This document shows positions 2,082 to 18,059 of a stretch of 33,064 bases of DNA, one piece after another. Each line of letters begins with the position of its first letter. Position 1 is the stretch's first letter. The notes below the pieces were generated by a model. The model searched no databases, was not told where the DNA came from, and was given only the letters and a program-made list of their open reading frames with translations. The DNA lies in NCBI GenBank assembly GCA_029864465.1, contig JAOTTJ010000004.1, forward strand, positions 1 to 33,064, read 5' to 3'. Source of the stretch: Gammaproteobacteria bacterium (GTDB lineage: Bacteria > Pseudomonadota > Gammaproteobacteria > Steroidobacterales > Rariloculaceae). Position numbers and translations under genes: made by a program.

Positions 2082-3716
2082 ATGTACACGCAGTTCTTTG
2101 GCCTGCGAGAGAAACCGTTCGCGATCACGCCGGATCCGCGCTACCTCTATCTGAGCCAACGCCATGCCGATGCGCTGGCGCACCTGATTTACGGTATCTC
2201 GCATAGCGGCGGCTTCATCCAGCTGACGGGCGAGGTCGGCACGGGCAAAACGACGCTCGTGCGAACGCTGTTCGAGCAGTTGCCCGACGAAGCCGACGTC
2301 GCGCTGATTCTGAACCCCGAGCTCTCAGCGACGGAATTCCTCACTGCAATACTCGAGGAACTCAAAGTCGAGCTGCCTGGCGACCGGTCCAACAAAGGCC
2401 TGATCGATCACCTCAACAAATTTCTACTCGAGGCGCATGCGCGCGGCCGGCGCACGGTGCTCATCGTCGACGAAGCTCAGAACCTCGCACCAAGGATCCT
2501 CGAGCAAGTCCGCCTCCTCACGAATCTCGAGACGCCGAAGCAGAAGCTGCTGCAGATCATATTGATCGGTCAACCCGAGCTCAGAACGTTGCTTGCACAG
2601 CCGAACATGCGTCAGCTCGCACAGCGCGTCACGGGCCGTTATCACCTCGAACCGCTGCTTCTCGACGATTCGATCAAATACATCGAGCACCGCCTCAAGG
2701 TCGCCGGCGCGAGCGGCGGTATCTTCACACCAAGCGCGCTTCGCGAAATCTATCGTCAGTCGAAGGGGGTGCCGCGGCTCATCAACGTCGTCGCCGACCG
2801 CGCACTGCTCGCAGCCTATACCCAGGACACGCGCAATATCGATCGACGCCTCGTCCGCCGGGCCGCAGCCGAGGTGTACGGCCAGCCGCGCGGCGCGGAC
2901 TGGAAAGCGCATCTCGCTGCAACGACGACCGTGGTTGCACTTGCCGCACTCGCGTTCGCAAGCTGGCATTACGCGACGCTCGATGCACCCGGCGTCATCA
3001 GTCCGGTCATCGAGCAAGCCACTGTCGAGCTCGTCGACGTGCCACCGGTAACTGTCGAGCCCGCCGAAGGGTTGCCACCCGAGCCGACGCCACCGTCGCT
3101 CGCCGGACTGCTCGCCGAGTCCGCCGTACCGAAGGACACCGATTCAGCGTTCGCGACGCTGTTCGCGCTCTGGGGCGCGCAATACGTGCCGGGTGATGGG
3201 CCAGCGTGCGAACAAGCGCAGCGCCAGCGGCTTCGTTGCTGGTACGAGCGGGGCACACTAAGCCACTTACGGCGCCTGAATCGCCCGGCAATATTGAGCC
3301 TCATCGATGGGCATGGCGACGAGTTTCAGGTTGTGCTCGGCCGGCTCGATGAGTCCACCGCGACATTGTTCGCCGGCGAGGACGCATTCGTGCTCGATCT
3401 CGAGGAGCTCGCCGAATATTGGTACGGCGATCACCTGATTCTCTGGCAGCCCGGCAGTGGCTCCGGCTCTGAGATAGCGCCGGGTAGCCAGGGCGAAAGC
3501 GTCATTTGGCTGCGTCGGAGCCTTGCAAAAATTTACGGAGAGCCGAGTCCGACCGTGCCGTCGAGTTTCTTCGACAGCGCGCTCGAGGAACGCGTGCGTG
3601 CTTACCAACGTGAGCGCCGCCTCGCCGTCGACGGCATCGTCGGCGCACAGACCCAGGTCGCCATCAACACGGAGCTCGGTGTGCCCGGCACACCATTGCT
3701 CACAGAGGCTGACTGA
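2082..3716 (+). CDS. gspA: GspA/ExeA-like AAA ATPase with C-terminal peptidoglycan-binding domain
   Basis: MYTQFFGLREKPFAITPDPRYLYLS start typical of ExeA; Walker A GEVGTGKTT; Walker B VLIVDEAQ; C-terminal GESVIWLRRSLAK...VRAYQRERRLAVDGIVGAQT (PG_binding_1-like). Confidence 0.88.
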   Translation: MYTQFFGLREKPFAITPDPRYLYLSQRHADALAHLIYGISHSGGFIQLTGEVGTGKTTLVRTLFEQLPDEADVALILNPELSATEFLTAILEELKVELPGDRSNKGLIDHLNKFLLEAHARGRRTVLIVDEAQNLAPRILEQVRLLTNLETPKQKLLQIILIGQPELRTLLAQPNMRQLAQRVTGRYHLEPLLLDDSIKYIEHRLKVAGASGGIFTPSALREIYRQSKGVPRLINVVADRALLAAYTQDTRNIDRRLVRRAAAEVYGQPRGADWKAHLAATTTVVALAALAFASWHYATLDAPGVISPVIEQATVELVDVPPVTVEPAEGLPPEPTPPSLAGLLAESAVPKDTDSAFATLFALWGAQYVPGDGPACEQAQRQRLRCWYERGTLSHLRRLNRPAILSLIDGHGDEFQVVLGRLDESTATLFAGEDAFVLDLEELAEYWYGDHLILWQPGSGSGSEIAPGSQGESVIWLRRSLAKIYGEPSPTVPSSFFDSALEERVRAYQRERRLAVDGIVGAQTQVAINTELGVPGTPLLTEAD

Positions 3717-3717
3717 G

Positions 3718-4356
3718 ATGTCGTTCATTCTCGACGCATTGAAGAAATCCGAGAAGGAACGGCAGCGCGAGGCCGTGCCGGGCATAGGCGATCTGCCGAT
3801 CGTCATTCATCAGACACGCACATCCACGTGGGTGTTCGCTGTTGTCGCCGCGCTCGGCCTCGGTGTCATCGCTGTCGTATGGGCCTGGTGGCGGACATCG
3901 GAGACCGGCCCGATCATCGCCAGCCCGGCGCCCGCAACGCCCGCGGCCGTCGTACCGGTCGCCCCACCGCCCGTGTCAGCGGTCGTCGAGCCCCAACCGG
4001 CCCGCACTACGACACGAAGCCTCGCGAACGAGGCCGATCGCATGGCAGCTGCGACAAACCGCCCGCCCGTGGCCTCTGGCGCCGCAGAGCCTCTCGTCGT
4101 CCAGGCGACACCGGCGGTCATCACGCCATCCGCGATGTCGATCCTCGAGGCGCGCGCCGCGGGCATGGCCGTGCCCGACCTCACGCTCGAGCTGCTCGTC
4201 TATAGCCCCGAACCGGCCCAGCGGTTCGTGTACATCAACGGCGGCAAATACGTCGAAGGCGAGACGCTGACCGACGGGCCGCGCCTCGTCGAGATCTCGA
4301 CCGAGGGCGCGATCCTGAGCTACCGCGGTCAGAACTTCCTGCTACCGCAGGAATAG
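3718..4356 (+). CDS. gspB: General secretion pathway protein B-like
   Basis: MSFILDALKKSEKERQREAVPGI N-terminus and single TM; C-terminal LELLVYSPEPAQRFVYINGGKYVEGETL; starts 1 bp after the gspA stop. Confidence 0.82.
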   Translation: MSFILDALKKSEKERQREAVPGIGDLPIVIHQTRTSTWVFAVVAALGLGVIAVVWAWWRTSETGPIIASPAPATPAAVVPVAPPPVSAVVEPQPARTTTRSLANEADRMAAATNRPPVASGAAEPLVVQATPAVITPSAMSILEARAAGMAVPDLTLELLVYSPEPAQRFVYINGGKYVEGETLTDGPRLVEISTEGAILSYRGQNFLLPQE

Positions 4357-9182: not shown

Positions 9183-9914
9183 TCAGCTCGCCGCGGCAGC
9201 GCTGACACAACGAGCGATCCAGCGCGAGATATCGCCGATTTCCTCCGCGCAGACCATGTGCTCCATCGGATAGCTGTGCCACTCGACGGCGTAGCCGTGC
9301 GCCTCGAGAGAGCGCGTCGAATCGACTGCGAGCGCCTCTGGAATGACGGCATCGTAGCTACCGTGCGCCATGAAGATCGACGTATCGGCGTTCGCCGCAG
9401 CTCGCTCGGCCTCGAGGCTGCCCCGCAATGGCAGATAGGCCGATAGGACCATGATGCCGCCAAGCGTTTGCGCGTAACGCAGCCCCGTGTGCAGCGCGAT
9501 CGCGCCACCCTGTGAGAAACCGGCCAGAATGATGTGCCGTGCCACGACGCCGCGAGCAAGTTCCGCCTCGATCAACGTCGTTACATCCGCCTCGCTTGCA
9601 CGGATTCCTGCCTCGTCTTCTACACGGAAGCGATCCAAAGAGAGAATGTCGTACCAGGCGCGCATCGTCATACCCTGGTTGATCGTCACGGGGCGCACAG
9701 GCGCGTGCGGAAAGATGAACCGCGTCGCTACCGGCAGCGTCAACGCCGGCACGATGGGCTCGAAGTCGTGGCCGTCGGCGCCGAGCCCGTGTAACCAAAT
9801 GACGCTGAATTCAGGCGCCTCGCCGGTCGAAACCTCGACTGCGTCGAGCCGGCCCGTCATCGGGCTAGCGCCAACGGAGCCCATCCCGGCAGGATGCACT
9901 TGCATTTCTTGCAC
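9183..9914 (-). CDS. Alpha/beta hydrolase, phospholipase/carboxylesterase family
   Basis: VIWLHGLGADGHDFEPIVPAL, RFIFPHAPVRPVTINQGMTMRAWYDI, nucleophile elbow GFSQGG, C-terminal HMVCAEE. N-terminal start uncertain. Confidence 0.9.
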   Translation of the reverse strand: MQEMQVHPAGMGSVGASPMTGRLDAVEVSTGEAPEFSVIWLHGLGADGHDFEPIVPALTLPVATRFIFPHAPVRPVTINQGMTMRAWYDILSLDRFRVEDEAGIRASEADVTTLIEAELARGVVARHIILAGFSQGGAIALHTGLRYAQTLGGIMVLSAYLPLRGSLEAERAAANADTSIFMAHGSYDAVIPEALAVDSTRSLEAHGYAVEWHSYPMEHMVCAEEIGDISRWIARCVSAAAAS

Positions 9915-9930
9915 ATAAAATGTACCGTAT

Positions 9931-9948
9931 GCGCAATTTTATTCATAT
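9931..9948. promoter_or_regulatory. Possible ArgR-type box (one good half-site)
   Basis: GCGCAATTTTATTCATAT in the short AT-rich gap before argR; TTATTCA matches the right half of the ARG consensus, the left half is poor. Confidence 0.3.
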
Positions 9949-9960
9949 GACCCACTCCCC

Positions 9961-10431
9961 ATGCCGACTGCCGCCGCCCAACAACAGGCACGCCGCCGCG
10001 CCATTGCAGAGCTCCTCGAGCGCAAGAAGATCATGCGCCAGGTCGAGCTCGTGCGCTTGCTGCGCGACGCAGGCTTCGACGCGACGCAGTCTAGCGTAAG
10101 CCGCGACCTCAAGGACCTCGGTGTTGCCAAGCTCACGACGGGCTACGAGCTGCCGGCGGGCGATCAGGGACCTGGTGACGATGCGCAGGCTCTGCAACTC
10201 ATCGCGGAGTTCGTGCGCGAGCTCAAAGCCGCAGGCCCACATCTGCTCGTCGTCGCGACAGCCATTGGTGCAGCGCAGCGCGTTGCCGTGACGCTCGACC
10301 GCGTCGCCTGGCCCGAGATCGTCGGCACGTTGTCAGGGGATGACACGATCTTCATCGCCACGGCGGGTGCCGCGCAGCAGCGGCGCCTGGTCACGCGGTT
10401 GCGCGAACATTTAGGAAAGGCTACATCATGA
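9961..10431 (+). CDS. argR: Arginine repressor
   Basis: HTH region ATQSSVSRDLKDLGVAKL; C-terminal VGTLSGDDTIFIAT; first gene of the arginine cluster. Confidence 0.9.
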   Translation: MPTAAAQQQARRRAIAELLERKKIMRQVELVRLLRDAGFDATQSSVSRDLKDLGVAKLTTGYELPAGDQGPGDDAQALQLIAEFVRELKAAGPHLLVVATAIGAAQRVAVTLDRVAWPEIVGTLSGDDTIFIATAGAAQQRRLVTRLREHLGKATS

Positions 10432-11636
10432 GCTCCAATGCTTCACCGATCATTCTGGCTTTCTCAGGCGGTTTGGATACGTCGTTCTGTGTGCCCTGGC
10501 TCAAGGAGACCTACGACCGCCCGATCGTCACGGCAACGGTCGACACGGGCGGCCTCGATATCGCGGCCGCCGAGGCGCTCGCTGAGCGGTCCCGCGAGCT
10601 CGGTGCCATCGAGCACGTACTCATCGAGGCGCGCGAGGCCTTCTTCGACGAGGTCCTGAAGCATCTGATCATGGGCAACGTCCGCCGCGGCCAGCTCTAT
10701 CCGCTGTGCGTCGGCGCCGAGCGCGGCATTCAGGCGCGCTTCCTCGCCGAGATCGCCAGCGAGCGCGGTGCCGCAACGGTTGCGCACGGCTGCACGGCAG
10801 CGGGCAACGATCAGGTTCGCTTCGAGGTGATCTTGAAAACCCTCGCACCCGAGCTCGAGGTGCTCGCACCCGTGCGCGATCATGCCTGGGCCCGCGACGA
10901 TCAGGTTGCCTACCTCGCCGAGCGTGGCTTGTCAGCGCCGGCCAAGGGCTCGGCCTACTCGATCAACCGCGGGCTCTGGGGCGTGACGATCGGCGGCGCC
11001 GAGACGCTGACTTCGACGCAGAGCATCCCCGAGTCGGCTTGGGTGCTCAGCGCCGATGCATACAGCGATCCGCAACCACCCGAAACGCTGTCGCTGAGCT
11101 TCACGCGCGGCGTGCCGACAGCCGTCAACGGTGAGGCTGGGAGTCCGGTCGAGCTCATCGAGCGTCTCGAGCGGATCGGCAGTCGGTTCGGCATCGGGCG
11201 CGGTATCCATCTCGGCGACACGATCATCGGCACGAAAGGCCGCGTCGCGTTCGAGGCGCCGGCCGCGGACATTCTGCTGACCGCACACCGCGAACTCGAA
11301 AAGCTCACGCTCAGCGCAATCCAGCAACGCGTCAAGGAACCACTCGGTCTGATCTATGGCGATCTCATTCACGAGGGCAAGCAGCTCGATCCGGCCTGCC
11401 GGGACATCGAGGCGCTGCTCATGTCCTCGCAGCAACGCGTGACAGGCTCGGTCGAGTGCGAGCTGCGGCCCGGCAGCCTGTTCGTCAGCGGCGTCGACTC
11501 GCCGCATTCACTCATGGCAGCAAGCCGCGGCAAGTATGGCGAGGCAGCCGGCGAATGGACGCCGGCGGACGCGCTCGGCTTCTCGACGATCCTGTCGCTG
11601 CCGGGCATGCTCTACACACGAGCGCAGGGGCACTGA
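10428..11636 (+). CDS. argG: Argininosuccinate synthase
   Basis: AFSGGLDTSFCVPWL PP-loop; KGSAYSINRGLWG; ATGA overlap with argR. Confidence 0.93.
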   Translation: MSSNASPIILAFSGGLDTSFCVPWLKETYDRPIVTATVDTGGLDIAAAEALAERSRELGAIEHVLIEAREAFFDEVLKHLIMGNVRRGQLYPLCVGAERGIQARFLAEIASERGAATVAHGCTAAGNDQVRFEVILKTLAPELEVLAPVRDHAWARDDQVAYLAERGLSAPAKGSAYSINRGLWGVTIGGAETLTSTQSIPESAWVLSADAYSDPQPPETLSLSFTRGVPTAVNGEAGSPVELIERLERIGSRFGIGRGIHLGDTIIGTKGRVAFEAPAADILLTAHRELEKLTLSAIQQRVKEPLGLIYGDLIHEGKQLDPACRDIEALLMSSQQRVTGSVECELRPGSLFVSGVDSPHSLMAASRGKYGEAAGEWTPADALGFSTILSLPGMLYTRAQGH

Positions 11637-11637
11637 G

Positions 11638-12708
11638 ATGCGTTCAGTCGTCGTCGATAAAATCGCCTCGGTCGCGATCGCCAACGATCTCAGCCGCGAG
11701 GTTCGCATCAGCCCGACGATACCGTGCGAGGAAGGTATCCTCGTCGCCGTCGAGGTGCTGAACAACAAGTCGCGCTACAACTCCCTCGAGCTCACGAGTG
11801 GGCGAATGGCGCAGGTCAAACGCGGCGACGTCATCGTCGGCGCGCTCGGCCACCGTAAGGCCCTGTTCGGCTATTCCGGCCACCTGCCGGAGAAGCTCGC
11901 GCCTGGCGACACGGTGCAGATCTTGAACCTCGGCGGTGTCTTGGGTATCTGCGACTCGATCAATCCGACGCATGGCCAACCGTTCGACTGTCGCGTCCTC
12001 GGTGTCGTTCTCGAGTTCCCCTATCTCGGCGAGCGCATCGGCGTGCCGGCGCGTGTCGGCACGCAGCCTCTGGATCCATCCGCCCTCGTCAACGTCAAGG
12101 GCGTGCCCATCATCGCGATCGCGGGCACGTGCATGGATGCAGGGAAGACCGTCGCGGCCTGCGCGGCAATCAGCCGATTCCGGCACAACGGCCTCACGGT
12201 CAACGCCTTCAAGGCGACGGGTGTCGCGCTGCGGCGAGACATTCTCGCAATGGAGGATGCGGGCGCGTATGAGACGGGAATCTTCTCCGATCACGGCATA
12301 CTCGCAACCACGGCGGACAACGCCCCTGCGCTCACGCGCATGCTCATGACTACGCTCGCCGAGGGTAAGCCCGATCTCATCGTGTTCGAGCTCGGTGACG
12401 GCTTACTCGGCGCCTACGGCGTCGAAGCGATACTCAAGGATTCGGCCGTGCGCAATGCGCTGAGCGCCGTCGTGCTCTGCGCGAACGATCCCGTCGGTGC
12501 CTGGGGTGGCATCCAACTCCTGCGCAATACGTTCGACATCGAACCCGCCGTCGTCACTGGACCTGCAACCGACAATCAGGTCGGCATCGACATCATCGAG
12601 CAGCGTACGAACGTGCGCGCAGTCAACGCGCTGACGAACGGCGCCGAGCTCGGCGACCTCCTGCAGGAAATACTCGGCTTGACCGGTAAGACGGCCGCAC
12701 AGGCATGA
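11638..12708 (+). CDS. Uncharacterised P-loop protein X (BioD/DUF1611-C-like core) inside the arginine operon
   Basis: ATG 1 bp after argG stop, ATGA overlap with argC. P-loop IAIAGTCMDAGKTVAACAAISRFRHNGLTVNAFKATG resembles the dethiobiotin-synthetase-like / DUF1611 C-domain; distinct N-terminal region of about 150 aa. Confidence 0.7.
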   Translation: MRSVVVDKIASVAIANDLSREVRISPTIPCEEGILVAVEVLNNKSRYNSLELTSGRMAQVKRGDVIVGALGHRKALFGYSGHLPEKLAPGDTVQILNLGGVLGICDSINPTHGQPFDCRVLGVVLEFPYLGERIGVPARVGTQPLDPSALVNVKGVPIIAIAGTCMDAGKTVAACAAISRFRHNGLTVNAFKATGVALRRDILAMEDAGAYETGIFSDHGILATTADNAPALTRMLMTTLAEGKPDLIVFELGDGLLGAYGVEAILKDSAVRNALSAVVLCANDPVGAWGGIQLLRNTFDIEPAVVTGPATDNQVGIDIIEQRTNVRAVNALTNGAELGDLLQEILGLTGKTAAQA

Positions 12709-13769
12709 ACGCGACATCGATACCCGTCATTGTCCTCGGTGGCTCGGGCTACGTGGCCGGAGAGTTCCTACGCCTCATCGCCCAGCACCCGCGATTGCAC
12801 CTCGGCGCAGCGGTTTCGACGAGCGCGGCTGGCGAGCAGATCGGCACGGCGTTCGCCCATCTCGTACCGAGCTACGCGGAGCAGTGCTTCGTCTCGATCG
12901 ACACAGCTATTGCGCAGTTGTCCGACGCGCAACGATGGGTCGCCGTCTCGGCCGCACCCCATGGCGCATCCGCAGCGCTGATCGAGCGCATTCTATCGAG
13001 CGCCGAGTCCGCAGCGGTCGACGTTACCGCCGTCGATGCATCGGCCGATTTCCGGTTCCGCTCCGCGGCCGAGTACGAAGCCATCTACTCGACACCGCAC
13101 GGCGCACCGGCGCGGCTCGAATCGTTCCGCTGCGCCGTACCGGAGCATCTGGCAGAGATCGACACGCCGCACATGGCACAGCCCGGCTGCTTTGCCTCAG
13201 CCATGCTGCTCGCCGCCGTGCCGCTCGTCGCGAAAGGTCTGACCGAGCCGGACTTCTGCGTGAGTGCGATCACGGGTAGCACAGGAGCCGGGGGCACGCC
13301 GCGCGAGACCACGCATCATCCAGTGCGCCAGAGCAATCTCTTCGCTTACCAGCCGCTCGTGCACCGTCATGTGCCGGAAGTCCGCACGCTGACTGAAGCT
13401 GCCACGGGCCAGTCGATCGGCCTGCATTTCGTGCCGCATTCGGGGCCCTTCGCACGAGGTATCCACGCGACCGTATTCGCACCGCGGGCAACGAGCGCCT
13501 CGGCAGACGAGATTCGCGCCGCCGTCGCTGATTACTATCGCGACTCGCGCTTCGTGCACGTGCTGGATGCACCGCCGCGCCTGAAGGACATCGTCGGCAC
13601 GAATTACGCGAATCTGAGCGTATCCGCAGACGACGGCACGGTCAGCGTTTGCTGCGTTATCGACAACCTCGTCAAGGGCGCGGCTGGCGGTGCGATGCAG
13701 TGGGTCAACCGGCTTCTCGGCTGGCCCGACACCGAAGGCCTAGAGGCGACCTCGCCGGGGTGGATCTGA
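12705..13769 (+). CDS. argC: N-acetyl(acyl)-gamma-glutamyl-phosphate reductase
   Basis: VIVLGGSGYVAGEFLRLI nucleotide-binding start; catalytic AQPGCFASAM; SAITGSTGAGGTPRETTHH; C-terminal NLVKGAAGGAMQ. Confidence 0.93.
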   Translation: MNATSIPVIVLGGSGYVAGEFLRLIAQHPRLHLGAAVSTSAAGEQIGTAFAHLVPSYAEQCFVSIDTAIAQLSDAQRWVAVSAAPHGASAALIERILSSAESAAVDVTAVDASADFRFRSAAEYEAIYSTPHGAPARLESFRCAVPEHLAEIDTPHMAQPGCFASAMLLAAVPLVAKGLTEPDFCVSAITGSTGAGGTPRETTHHPVRQSNLFAYQPLVHRHVPEVRTLTEAATGQSIGLHFVPHSGPFARGIHATVFAPRATSASADEIRAAVADYYRDSRFVHVLDAPPRLKDIVGTNYANLSVSADDGTVSVCCVIDNLVKGAAGGAMQWVNRLLGWPDTEGLEATSPGWI

Positions 13770-14926
13770 TGAGCACGCCGCGCGCGCAACTGACCGAGGT
13801 TTATCCGATGCTGCCGTTCGAGCCGGTCTCCGGTACGGGCTTGTACCTGCGTGACGATGCGGGTCGCGAGGTTCTCGATCTCTATGCCGGTCATGCCGTC
13901 GCGGCATTGGGATACGGCCACCCGCGGCTCGTTCACGCTTTGGCGCAGCAGGCCGAGCAGCTCTATTTCCAGAGTAATGCCGTCAATCTACGAATTCGCG
14001 ACGCTGCGGCAGACCGCCTCGCCGCGTTCGCACCTGAAGGGCTCGACCGGGTGTTCTTCGTCAACAGCGGCGCCGAAGCGAACGAGAACGCGCTACGCAT
14101 TGCGCTGCGAGCCACCGGCCGGAAAAAAATCGTTGCGATCGAGCGCAGCTTCCACGGCCGCAGCGCCGCTGCGGCGGCGGTGACTTGGGGTGCAAAGGAT
14201 CGCTGGTACGGTTTCCCACGAACACCGATGGACGTCGACTTCGCGCCCCGCAACGACGTCGCCGCCCTCGAGGCGGCTATCGACGCCGACACGGCCGCGC
14301 TCATTATCGAGCCCGTACAAGGCCTCGCGGGCGCATTCGATTTCTCGCACGAGTTCATGACGGCGGCGCGCGAGGCTTGCACGCGCGCCGGGGCACTGCT
14401 GATTCTCGACGAGGTCCAGACGGGTGTCGGGCGGCTCGGCGAGCCGTTCGGCGCCGATCTCTACGATGTGCGACCCGATCTGCTCACGACTGCGAAAGGA
14501 CTAGGCGGCGGCTTCCCGTGCGGCGCCGTGGTCATGACTCAAGACCTCGCCGTCGATCTCAAGCCCGGCGATCTCGGCACGACGTTCGGCGGAGGCCCGC
14601 TCGCTTGCGCCGTTATCGAGGCAGTCATCGACACGATCGAATCCGACAACGTGCTAGACAACGTACGCGCAATGTCCGCGCTCGTACGTGAGACCTGTAC
14701 GCACGGCCCGATAACGGCTATCCAAGGCGCCGGACTGTTGCTCGGTCTCAAGACCGAGGTCAAGGCTAGCGCCGTTCGCAACGCGCTGCTCGAGCGCGAC
14801 ATACTCGTCGGCACGAGCGCCGATCCACACATCATGCGCCTGCTGCCGCCGCTGATTCTCAACGAGAATCACGTGGCGCGGCTTTCTTCCGCCCTCAAGG
14901 AGCTCAACGATGAATCGCTTCAATGA
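13769..14926 (+). CDS. argD: Acetyl/succinylornithine aminotransferase
   Basis: LYLRDDAGREVLDLYAGHAVAALGYGHP; FVNSGAEANENALRIA; LLILDEVQTGVGR; PLP-Lys TTAKGLGGGFP; ATGA overlap with argC. Confidence 0.92.
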   Translation: MSTPRAQLTEVYPMLPFEPVSGTGLYLRDDAGREVLDLYAGHAVAALGYGHPRLVHALAQQAEQLYFQSNAVNLRIRDAAADRLAAFAPEGLDRVFFVNSGAEANENALRIALRATGRKKIVAIERSFHGRSAAAAAVTWGAKDRWYGFPRTPMDVDFAPRNDVAALEAAIDADTAALIIEPVQGLAGAFDFSHEFMTAAREACTRAGALLILDEVQTGVGRLGEPFGADLYDVRPDLLTTAKGLGGGFPCGAVVMTQDLAVDLKPGDLGTTFGGGPLACAVIEAVIDTIESDNVLDNVRAMSALVRETCTHGPITAIQGAGLLLGLKTEVKASAVRNALLERDILVGTSADPHIMRLLPPLILNENHVARLSSALKELNDESLQ

Positions 14927-15911
14927 TCTCGCCGATTTTTCCGTCGCGGAAATCGACAGCCTGTTGGAACTCGCGCAACGCCTCGAGCGTGAGCCCGAGC
15001 CACGTGCGCTCGAGGGCAAGGTCATGTCGCTGCTATTTTTGAGCCCGTCGCTGCGCACGCTCGCATCGTTTCAGGCCGCAATGCAGCGTCTCGGCGGCGG
15101 CTCATTCGTGATCTCCCCGGACATGTCGATTCACGGCATCGAGACACGACCTGGAATCGTCATGGATGGCGTCGCCGCGGAGCACATTCGCGAGGCTGTG
15201 CCCGTTATCGCTTCCTACGGCGACGTCATGGGCATTCGCGCGTTCGCGGAACGGCGCAGCCTCGAGACGGAAATAGCTGACAAGGAGTTCGAGGAGCTCG
15301 CTGATCTCGTGGACACGCCGCTCATCAACATGGAATCGGCGATACAGCATCCCTGCCAGAGCCTGGCGGATTGGAAGACGATGGACGAGCTCGAAATTCC
15401 GCGGACGGGCGGGCGCTTCGTGCTGTCGTGGGCCTACCATCCGCGACCCCTGCCGCTCGCAGTACCCGCCGCGACGGTGAAGATGGCCGCGATGCGCGGC
15501 ATGGACGTCGTCGTGCTGCGCCCGGAGGGATTCGAGCTACCCGAGCCGATCATGGCGCAGGCGCGCACGCTCGCCCAGACGTCCGGCGGCAGCGTCTCGG
15601 AAACGGCCGAGCGCAGCGAAGCACTTCAGGGCGCACACGTGATCTACGCCAAGTCCTGGACCTCGACACAGCATTACGGCAACCGGGCCGGGGACCAGGC
15701 CCTGCGTGAAGAGCTCGTCGACTGGTGCGTCGATGAGCCCTGGTTCGAGACCGCGCAGGCCGATTGCCGCTTCATGCACTGCCTGCCTGTGCGTCGCGGT
15801 GTCGTTGTCGCCGACCGTGTTCTCGACGGACCGCGCAGCGTCGTGCTGGCCGAAGCGCGCAACCGAATGTATGCGCAGATGGCTGTGCTCCATCGAATGT
15901 TGAAAGGATAG
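14910..15911 (+). CDS. argF': N-acylornithine carbamoyltransferase (AOTCase/SOTCase family)
   Basis: SPSLRT carbamoyl-phosphate motif, MESAIQHPCQSLADW, WAYHPRPLPLAVP, FMHCLPVRR. Closer by eye to Bacteroides SOTCase than to ordinary OTCase. Confidence 0.87.
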   Translation: MNRFNDLADFSVAEIDSLLELAQRLEREPEPRALEGKVMSLLFLSPSLRTLASFQAAMQRLGGGSFVISPDMSIHGIETRPGIVMDGVAAEHIREAVPVIASYGDVMGIRAFAERRSLETEIADKEFEELADLVDTPLINMESAIQHPCQSLADWKTMDELEIPRTGGRFVLSWAYHPRPLPLAVPAATVKMAAMRGMDVVVLRPEGFELPEPIMAQARTLAQTSGGSVSETAERSEALQGAHVIYAKSWTSTQHYGNRAGDQALREELVDWCVDEPWFETAQADCRFMHCLPVRRGVVVADRVLDGPRSVVLAEARNRMYAQMAVLHRMLKG

Positions 15912-15916
15912 CGACG

Positions 15917-16858
15917 ATGTCACGACTGAGCGGCAGCGAACGCGCGATCGTAGTGAAGGCACTCAAGCATGCCGCGCCCTATATCCGCATGTACAAACAC
16001 AAGACCTTCGTGCTCAAAGCCGGCGGCGAGGCCTTTGTCTCGCCCGAAGCCACGCGCGCGCTTGTAGAGCAGATCGCGATTCTGCACGGCGTCGGTATCC
16101 GCATCGTGCTCGTGCATGGCGGCGGGCCACAGTCCACAGCGCTCGAAAAAGCATTGGGGATCAAGACCGAGTTCGTCGACGGGCGGCGCGTGACGAATGA
16201 GAACTCGCTCGCCGTCACGACGATGGTCCTTAACGGTCAGATCAACACGATGATCCTGGCCGCATGCCGGCAGGTGGGCTTAGCGGCCGTCGGCATCAGC
16301 GGCGTCGACGCCGGCCTTATCCGGGCACACAAACGCCCGCCGGTTCACCGCGAGGATGGAGAAACCATCGATTACGGCTTCGTCGGCGACATCGACGGCG
16401 TCGATGCGAGCGTTATTCTCAAGCAGCTCGACAGCGATCTCGTGCCGGTGATCAGCCCGCTGTCCGCGGACGAGAACGGCACGTTGCTGAATATCAACGC
16501 CGACACGATCGCCGCCGTCGTTGCCGCAGAGATCGGCGCCGAGAAGCTCATTCTCGCCACGGGCGCGCCCGGCATACTCGAGTCGCGCGACGATCCGCGC
16601 TCGGTGATCTCTTACATCGACATCGCGGGTCTGGATAAGCTGCGGGTTGCGGGCCGCATCGCCGACGGTATGTTGCCGAAGGCCGCGGCCATCGAACGAG
16701 CGCTGCGCGATGGCGTGCCGCGCGTGCACGTGATCTCCTACGAGCTGCCGGACAGCCTGCTGCTCGAAGTGTTCACCAACGAAGGCACGGGCACACTCGT
16801 TGTCACCGATGTCGAGGACCTGAGCCCAGCCGAGCAGACCGGTTCGGACGATGGCTAA
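15917..16858 (+). CDS. argB: N-acetyl(acyl)glutamate kinase, no fused GNAT domain
   Basis: FVLKAGGEAF, VLVHGGGPQ, LLNINADTIAAVVAAEIGAEKLILAT, ADGMLPKAAAIERAL; ends about 30 aa after the kinase fold. Confidence 0.92.
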   Translation: MSRLSGSERAIVVKALKHAAPYIRMYKHKTFVLKAGGEAFVSPEATRALVEQIAILHGVGIRIVLVHGGGPQSTALEKALGIKTEFVDGRRVTNENSLAVTTMVLNGQINTMILAACRQVGLAAVGISGVDAGLIRAHKRPPVHREDGETIDYGFVGDIDGVDASVILKQLDSDLVPVISPLSADENGTLLNINADTIAAVVAAEIGAEKLILATGAPGILESRDDPRSVISYIDIAGLDKLRVAGRIADGMLPKAAAIERALRDGVPRVHVISYELPDSLLLEVFTNEGTGTLVVTDVEDLSPAEQTGSDDG

Positions 16859-18059
16859 ACAACGGCTCTGGGATAAAGGCGGCGCGCTCGACGAGCAGAT
16901 ATTGAAGTTCACGGCGGGCGAAGATCACCAGCTCGACGCACGACTCGTCGCCTATGACGTGCTTGCCTCGACCGCACACGCGCGCATGCTCGCCGAGCGG
17001 AATCTTCTCAGCAGCGAGGACTGCGAAGCGATTTGCACCGGGCTTGCCGAGCTTGGCGAGGCGCACGCACGTGGCGAGTGGTCAATAGAAATCGAGGAGG
17101 AGGACGCTCATAGCGCGCTCGAGCGACGACTCATCGAGCGCATCGGCGAGGCAGGCGGACGCGTGCATCTCGGTCGATCGCGCAATGACCAGGTGCTGGC
17201 CGCATTGCGCTTGTATATGAAAGACGCTGCAGCAACCCTCGGTGCCGGCGCCTGTCGCGTCGCCAATGCGCTCGATGAAATTGCGCGCGAGCAGGGCACG
17301 ATTGCGCTGCCAGGCTACACGCACATGCAGCGGGCGATGCCGAGCACCGTCGCGCTCTGGGCGCAGGGCTTCGCCGCAGAGCTACGTGACGATGCCGCCG
17401 GCTTCGCACGCGCCTCAATCCGGGCCGATGCGAATCCGCTCGGCTCGGCAGCCGGCTACGGCACGCCCGGTGTCGATGTCGACCGTGAGGCGACGCGTGC
17501 GGCTTTGGGATTTGCCGCCACGCAGGAGCCCGTTACGGCCGTGCAGCTCAGCCGGGGCAAAGCCGAAGCCGCGTTGATTTTCGAGATCGCGCTGCTCCTG
17601 GGTGACCTCGGTCGGCTTGCAGCCGACCTGCTGCTCTACTACACGCAGGAGTTCGCCTTCATTTCGCTACCCGAGGACATGACGACGGGCTCCTCGATCA
17701 TGCCGCAGAAGCGCAACCCCGACGTGTTCGAGCTCATTCGCGGCGCAGCATCCGGCCCGGTCGCCGCGCTCGTGGAAAGCTTGAGCCTCACGACGAAACT
17801 CACCTCGGGTTACCACCGCGACTTACAGCGCCTCAAGGCGCCCCTGTTTCGAAGTATCGATATCGCCGAGGATGTTACGAGCATCATGGCCCATGCGCTT
17901 GTCGGCGTACGTTTTCGAGCCGATCGAATCGAGCTCGACGATACGCTTTACGCCGCCGAGCGCGCCAATGAGCTCGTGGTCCGCGAAGGTATTCCGTTTC
18001 GCGAAGCCTATCGCCGTGTAGCCGCAAAGCTCGCAGCCCGGACAGGGGGCAACGATTAG
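16851..18059 (+). CDS. argH: Argininosuccinate lyase
   Basis: VHLGRSRNDQV, LPGYTHMQRAMPST, fumarase/lyase signature TGSSIMPQKRNPD; 8-nt overlap with argB. Confidence 0.94.
   Translation: MAKQRLWDKGGALDEQILKFTAGEDHQLDARLVAYDVLASTAHARMLAERNLLSSEDCEAICTGLAELGEAHARGEWSIEIEEEDAHSALERRLIERIGEAGGRVHLGRSRNDQVLAALRLYMKDAAATLGAGACRVANALDEIAREQGTIALPGYTHMQRAMPSTVALWAQGFAAELRDDAAGFARASIRADANPLGSAAGYGTPGVDVDREATRAALGFAATQEPVTAVQLSRGKAEAALIFEIALLLGDLGRLAADLLLYYTQEFAFISLPEDMTTGSSIMPQKRNPDVFELIRGAASGPVAALVESLSLTTKLTSGYHRDLQRLKAPLFRSIDIAEDVTSIMAHALVGVRFRADRIELDDTLYAAERANELVVREGIPFREAYRRVAAKLAARTGGND

Follow-up and report, generated by a model that had tools for sequence, protein, structure and literature searches.

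What is the function of the gene lodged between argG and argC in this arginine operon, and could it supply the first step of the pathway, for which the operon seems to hold no enzyme? The window, that is, the whole stretch of 33,064 nucleotides analysed here, carries on its + strand argR, argG, X, argC, argD, argF', argB and argH in this order, identified from curated models or from the best-matching family. Apart from X, they encode the arginine repressor (argR, 9961..10431; PF01316 4.3e-16, PF02863 1.5e-15), argininosuccinate synthase (argG, 10428..11636; TIGR00032, 293.8 bits), N-acyl-gamma-glutamyl-phosphate reductase (argC, 12705..13769; TIGR01850, 267.8 bits), N-acylornithine aminotransferase (argD, 13769..14926), a knotted-type transcarbamylase with a succinylornithine signature (argF', 14910..15911; NF003384, 322.5 bits), N-acylglutamate kinase (argB, 15914..16858; TIGR00761, 212.5 bits) and argininosuccinate lyase (argH, 16851..18059; TIGR00838, 292.6 bits). 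The scores of argG, argC, argF', argB and argH were over cut-off; for argD, TIGR00707 was the best family (2.1e-101), its 339.5 bits lying below the cut-off of 410. An ARG-box-like site, TGCGCAATTTTATTCATA (9930..9947), occupies the short gap that precedes argR. It is a consensus match only, with 3 mismatches, and the sole one in the whole window, where 0.29 were expected by chance. Diverging from argR is an alpha/beta hydrolase gene of the phospholipase/carboxylesterase type (9183-9914, - strand), which holds the same place in many gammaproteobacterial X loci.

X (11638..12708, + strand) encodes a protein of 356 aa, our candidate N-succinyl-L-glutamate synthase. A single base separates the argG stop TGA (11634-11636) from the X ATG at 11638, and the X stop (12706-12708) overlaps the argC ATG at 12705 as ATGA, exactly the arrangement described in the first-pass annotation of this DNA. 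The same annotation had seen no argA, argJ or GNAT gene and no GNAT fusion in argB or argH. As a matter of fact, none of argA, argJ, GNAT and argE was found from argR to argH in the window, PF00696 was the sole Pfam domain in argB, and the Pfam search showed no GNAT in argH.

Comparison of X with Pfam, NCBIfam and PHROGs models gave nothing above cut-off. Among curated family models, the best sub-cut-off scores were those of MobB (E 0.0047) and cobyric acid synthase (E 0.0045), and sequence matches to the GNAT, ArgA and ArgJ families were absent. Judged by its sequence, X is a member of an unnamed protein family. Amino-acid changes were few relative to synonymous ones (pN/pS 0.15 against locus L001, compared with 0.155 for argB and 0.218 for argC by the same measure), which indicates that X is under purifying selection, as a working gene.

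Gene neighbourhood and first-step enzymes

Bacterial and archaeal genomes were scanned; most of the X genomes surveyed were MAGs, and genomes were related to one another. This yielded 80 loci with relatives at 44-84% identity. argC lay directly downstream of X in 76 of the 77 testable loci, from many phyla, and argG upstream in 70 of them. X clusters carry the later arginine enzymes, and the first-step enzyme alone is missing. Outside Gammaproteobacteria, argB and argH are in most clusters separated by a single additional gene, an ArgE/DapE-like M20 hydrolase in the clusters inspected, and in most non-gammaproteobacterial clusters this M20 argE is the sole extra besides X from argR to argH. 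With the M20 hydrolase included, all later steps are accounted for, so that X alone among the arginine-operon genes has no role assigned and is the only one left for step 1. Gammaproteobacterial X clusters (L001-L023) differ from most others in having no argE at this position. In the window, too, nothing separates argB from argH (junction at 16851-16858), and a DapE encoded on another contig of the same genome (C455, locus L108) may be a candidate desuccinylase. Incidentally, in L080 (genome G324, 12.3 Mb), X adjoins argB, argC being absent; another contig of G324 carries ArgJ close to a second argB-like match.

We then considered the known first-step enzymes. Genome-wide searches of the assembly that holds the window (3.52 Mb, 92% complete) found neither ArgA nor ArgJ over cut-off, and no ArgA2-type GNAT at E 1e-6, so that the absence noted in the operon holds, by the thresholds used, for the whole assembly. 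This genome encodes nine GNATs that pass the Pfam cut-off, as well as M20 amidohydrolases, with roles unassigned, among which an unrecognised synthase could conceivably be found. We screened 275 Gammaproteobacteria, 8 with true X and 267 others. ArgA over cut-off was present in 0/8 of the former and 182/267 of the latter, a split with a chance of ~1.4e-4 in a naive calculation that treats genomes as independent and ignores kinship. All 13 genomes having only a distant X paralogue possess ArgA; the ArgA-absence pattern is therefore specific to true X. Among 58 X genomes (that of the window and 57 others), ArgA and ArgJ were each over cut-off in a single one (G307 and G324, respectively), and ArgA2, the short GNAT, gave 2 weak matches (G320, G321). 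Other known first-step enzymes, as covered by searches for ArgA, ArgJ and ArgA2, were thus almost always absent.

A Bacteroidota-centred sample, drawn around a Rhodothermales genome, showed what occurs in similar clusters. In six of them (L148-L153), X, at 36-40% identity, occupies the place between argG and argC. In five others (L155, L157-L160), a GNAT of ~200 aa, ArgA2-like, lies beside argG, and X was not seen in the stretch fetched; a profile of these GNATs found one more beside argG in G367. In L162 and L163, ArgJ sits between argC and argB. One X genome of this sample, G354, has ArgA2 elsewhere in the genome. The ~200 aa GNAT beside argG was matched to ArgA2 by its published description, which it fits. 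ArgA2 of Bacteroidetes has been proposed to be an N-succinylglutamate synthase, alongside genetic data for BT3761 (PMC9026213, PMC7311316). Collectively, X, ArgJ and ArgA2 take turns in similar clusters of this one sample. Because of synteny, elimination of the known enzymes and replacement by ArgJ or ArgA2, X is probably the missing N-acylglutamate-forming enzyme of arginine synthesis, the candidacy first put forward on the window alone.

ArgF' signature and the acyl group

Glu92, Asn185 and Lys302 mark N-acetylornithine transcarbamylase; in N-succinylornithine transcarbamylase, the same sites hold A/S/P/V/Q, P and V/I/E, respectively (PMC4581275). Alignment of the window ArgF' placed Ala90 (15177..15179), Pro182 (15453..15455) and Val299 (15804..15806), all on the + strand, at these sites. 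For Ala90 the alignment was made to 3kzc, which has Glu at this position, and to the variant chain 3l02, which has Ala. All three residues agree with the succinyl signature, and we predict that this ArgF' is probably an N-succinylornithine transcarbamylase. The same trend was observed across X loci. At the Glu92 site, 71 loci had A (53), V (9), S (3), Q (3), P (2) or T (1), and Glu in none; the Asn185 site was P in 69/70, and the Lys302 site was V/I/E in 64/70 and Lys in 4/70.

This signature suggests that the pathway of X clusters probably runs on succinylated intermediates and that X would be the succinylating enzyme. The acyl group, which the first-pass annotation had left general, can in this way be narrowed: read from the neighbouring ArgF', it is probably succinyl, not acetyl. 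ArgA2 clusters carry an ArgF' signature nearly identical to that of X clusters. This ruled out X as a mere companion of succinyl-type ArgF', as ArgA2 clusters have such an ArgF' without X.

Fold of X and its distant relatives

The AlphaFold2 model of X had a mean pLDDT of 95.5 (93.5 for the N-terminal 151 residues alone). For the beta-rich N-terminal domain (residues 1-151; 11638..12090, + strand), a Foldseek search of the PDB gave no solved structure below E 1.6. With the whole model, FtsY/Ffh- and BioD-kind P-loop proteins came top by E-value; the dethiobiotin synthetases 3of5 and 1dts matched at E ~5e-6, and the DUF1611 protein 2obn and DgcN (7xrj) at E ~7e-5. The TMq of 2obn, 0.41-0.42, was the highest among the matches listed and that of 7xrj was 0.38, over ~240 columns. 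The model thus points to two domains, a P-loop domain of known type and an apparently new N-terminal domain. The P-loop GTCMDAGKT (residues 163-171; 12124..12150, + strand) opens the segment GTCMDAGKTVAACA (residues 163-176), itself followed by NAFKATG. In 52 orthologues, G163, M166, G169, K170 and T171 were invariant, and T164 and C165 nearly so. Further on lie the motif K-x-TGVxLRRD (residues 192-201; 12211..12240, + strand), the TG of which corresponds in the alignment to the initial TG of the DUF1611 motif TGQTG, and ELGDGLLGAYGV (residues 251-262; 12388..12423, + strand), found near the DUF1611 EGQG motif in the alignments.

A likeness to dethiobiotin synthetase and to DUF1611 had been proposed from the letters of the P-loop, and HMM and structure searches sorted out how far it goes: structures of both kinds came up in the fold search, and no family came over cut-off. 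With BioD, X shares the P-loop spacing and the fold of the C-terminal domain; in sequence the likeness was weak. A direct search of the PDB with X gave no match, and the X profile reached 1dts at E 0.74, chance level, with 33 P-loop residues aligned. X was rejected as a BioD member, there being no full-length family match; full-length homology is undetectable and the genomic context is different.

With DUF1611, X shares at most the P-loop domain. PF07755 did not match X, gave weak matches under the curated cut-off in 30/52 orthologues (best E 1.7e-4) and found nothing over cut-off in the genome of the window. Alignment of the X family with eight DUF1611 proteins by hhalign (E 2.7e-4, probability 41%) covered the C-terminal 173 columns only. 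In L127, L128, L130 and L134, an enolase-superfamily DgcA-like gene lies beside a gammaproteobacterial DUF1611 gene, and X clusters have no DgcA-type gene. On Pfam cut-off and gene context, DUF1611 membership was rejected, and X is at most a distant relative of DUF1611/DgcN. By eye, the gammaproteobacterial DUF1611 genes in L131 and L132 pair with an alanine-racemase-like gene; a literature search for DUF1611 together with arginine found nothing.

What X appears to have in common with DgcN/DUF1611 (PF07755; 7xrj, 2obn, 2g0t) is a BioD-like P-loop domain, spaced in the GT-x5-GK manner, together with a TG motif and one resembling E-x-G. DgcN acylates glutamate, as proposed for X, its substrate being D-glutamate; to our knowledge, it is the sole glutamate-acylating relative of X. 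It differs in that the N-domain of X has no match among solved structures and in that X lies with arg genes, not with DgcA. The first-pass annotation had allowed for L- or D-glutamate. Acylation of D-glutamate by X found no support and was set aside, as a DgcA-type gene is absent from X clusters.

Proposed reaction, rival explanations and paralogues

In our view, X is likely to act as an N-succinyl-L-glutamate synthase that stands in for ArgA/ArgA2 as a non-orthologous replacement. X would add an acyl group, most likely succinyl, to the alpha-amino group of L-glutamate, the first committed step. ArgB, ArgC and ArgD would convert N-succinylglutamate into N-succinylornithine, ArgF' would carbamylate the latter and an M20 hydrolase would strip the succinyl, namely ArgE in most non-gammaproteobacterial clusters and perhaps DapE in the genome of the window, before ArgG and ArgH complete arginine. 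The likeliest donor would be succinyl-CoA, and the P-loop (G163-T171, with K170) may hold the CoA phosphates. Both ideas are favoured because DgcN uses acetyl-CoA. The conserved basic residues K44, R56, R73, R133, K192 and R199/R200 are candidates for carboxylate binding. The reaction of X, its succinyl group and the donor are all inferred from analogy and context.

Other explanations were weighed against this one. The G-x5-GKT spacing that X shares with BioD/CobQ, along with the fold match to dethiobiotin synthetase, would also suit an ATP-dependent ligase, in which succinate or acetate would be turned into an acyl phosphate and passed to glutamate, much like carbamate activation in BioD. Yet DgcN, which its PDB entry (7xrj) titles an N-acetyltransferase, has a similar P-loop domain, so a P-loop need not mean ATP use, and we hold such a ligase to be unlikely. 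That DgcN is an N-acetyltransferase could in turn mean that X makes N-acetyl-L-glutamate from acetyl-CoA and that the ArgF' signature misreports the true substrate; the acyl group favoured by the ArgF' signature does differ from the one that DgcN would suggest, and the NCBIfam name of the ArgF' family NF003384 is N-acetylornithine carbamoyltransferase. All three diagnostic residues of the window ArgF' are nevertheless of the succinyl type, with Glu at the key site in no X locus, which makes an acetyl-forming X improbable.

A different possibility is that X plays an accessory or regulatory part in the arginine operon as a nucleotide-binding protein, step 1 being left to an unrecognised enzyme. 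Homology says nothing direct on catalysis by X with L-glutamate, and several GNATs of the genome are without assigned role. However, X and ArgA2 swap in clusters that both have succinyl-type ArgF', showing that X is not needed for ArgF', and X is hardly ever accompanied by a known first-step enzyme. We consider an accessory role improbable and retain N-succinyl-L-glutamate synthase as the best reading.

ArgA, ArgJ and bifunctional NAGS/K also start arginine synthesis from glutamate, but they have no homology with X, and ArgA and ArgJ are nearly absent from X genomes. ArgA2 resembles X in predicted reaction, in pathway and in the kind of cluster, with succinyl-type ArgF', and is an unrelated protein, a ~200 aa GNAT with no P-loop domain. 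ArgA3 of Veillonella and Dialister, an M20-type candidate NAGS (PMC9026213), is likewise a proposed non-orthologous ArgA replacement, from a family unrelated to X. There is about an even chance that X is the founder of a new amino-acid N-succinyltransferase family, in which a P-loop domain for acyl-CoA chemistry is joined to an N-terminal domain of new fold, and that it stands at the start of a succinyl-based arginine route across many phyla besides Bacteroidota. If so, arginine step 1 would gain one more unrelated protein family, and DgcN a companion as a P-loop protein acylating glutamate. The succinylated pathway would extend well beyond Bacteroidota, and an annotation gap would be filled: the genomes of Planctomycetota, Woeseia-like Gammaproteobacteria and further groups, most of them uncultured, would no longer be read as lacking the first arginine step.

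Finally, we noticed paralogues of X. A distant one, at 31% identity, lies on contig C1 of the same genome (L107:1838-2860, - strand) and overlaps an M20 glutamate-carboxypeptidase-like gene (2853-4031, - strand), a pair that recurs in G157 (L170). The L172_paralog row of the tree is an ORF on the wrong strand and was disregarded. A second X-like subfamily, with a MobB-like P-loop (L169, L171, L173, L174, L175, L177), is found directly upstream of a gene of ~560-580 aa. In L173 and L175, this gene encodes an ABC transporter whose membrane and ATPase domains are fused, and in L174 the next gene after it encodes a porin O/P.
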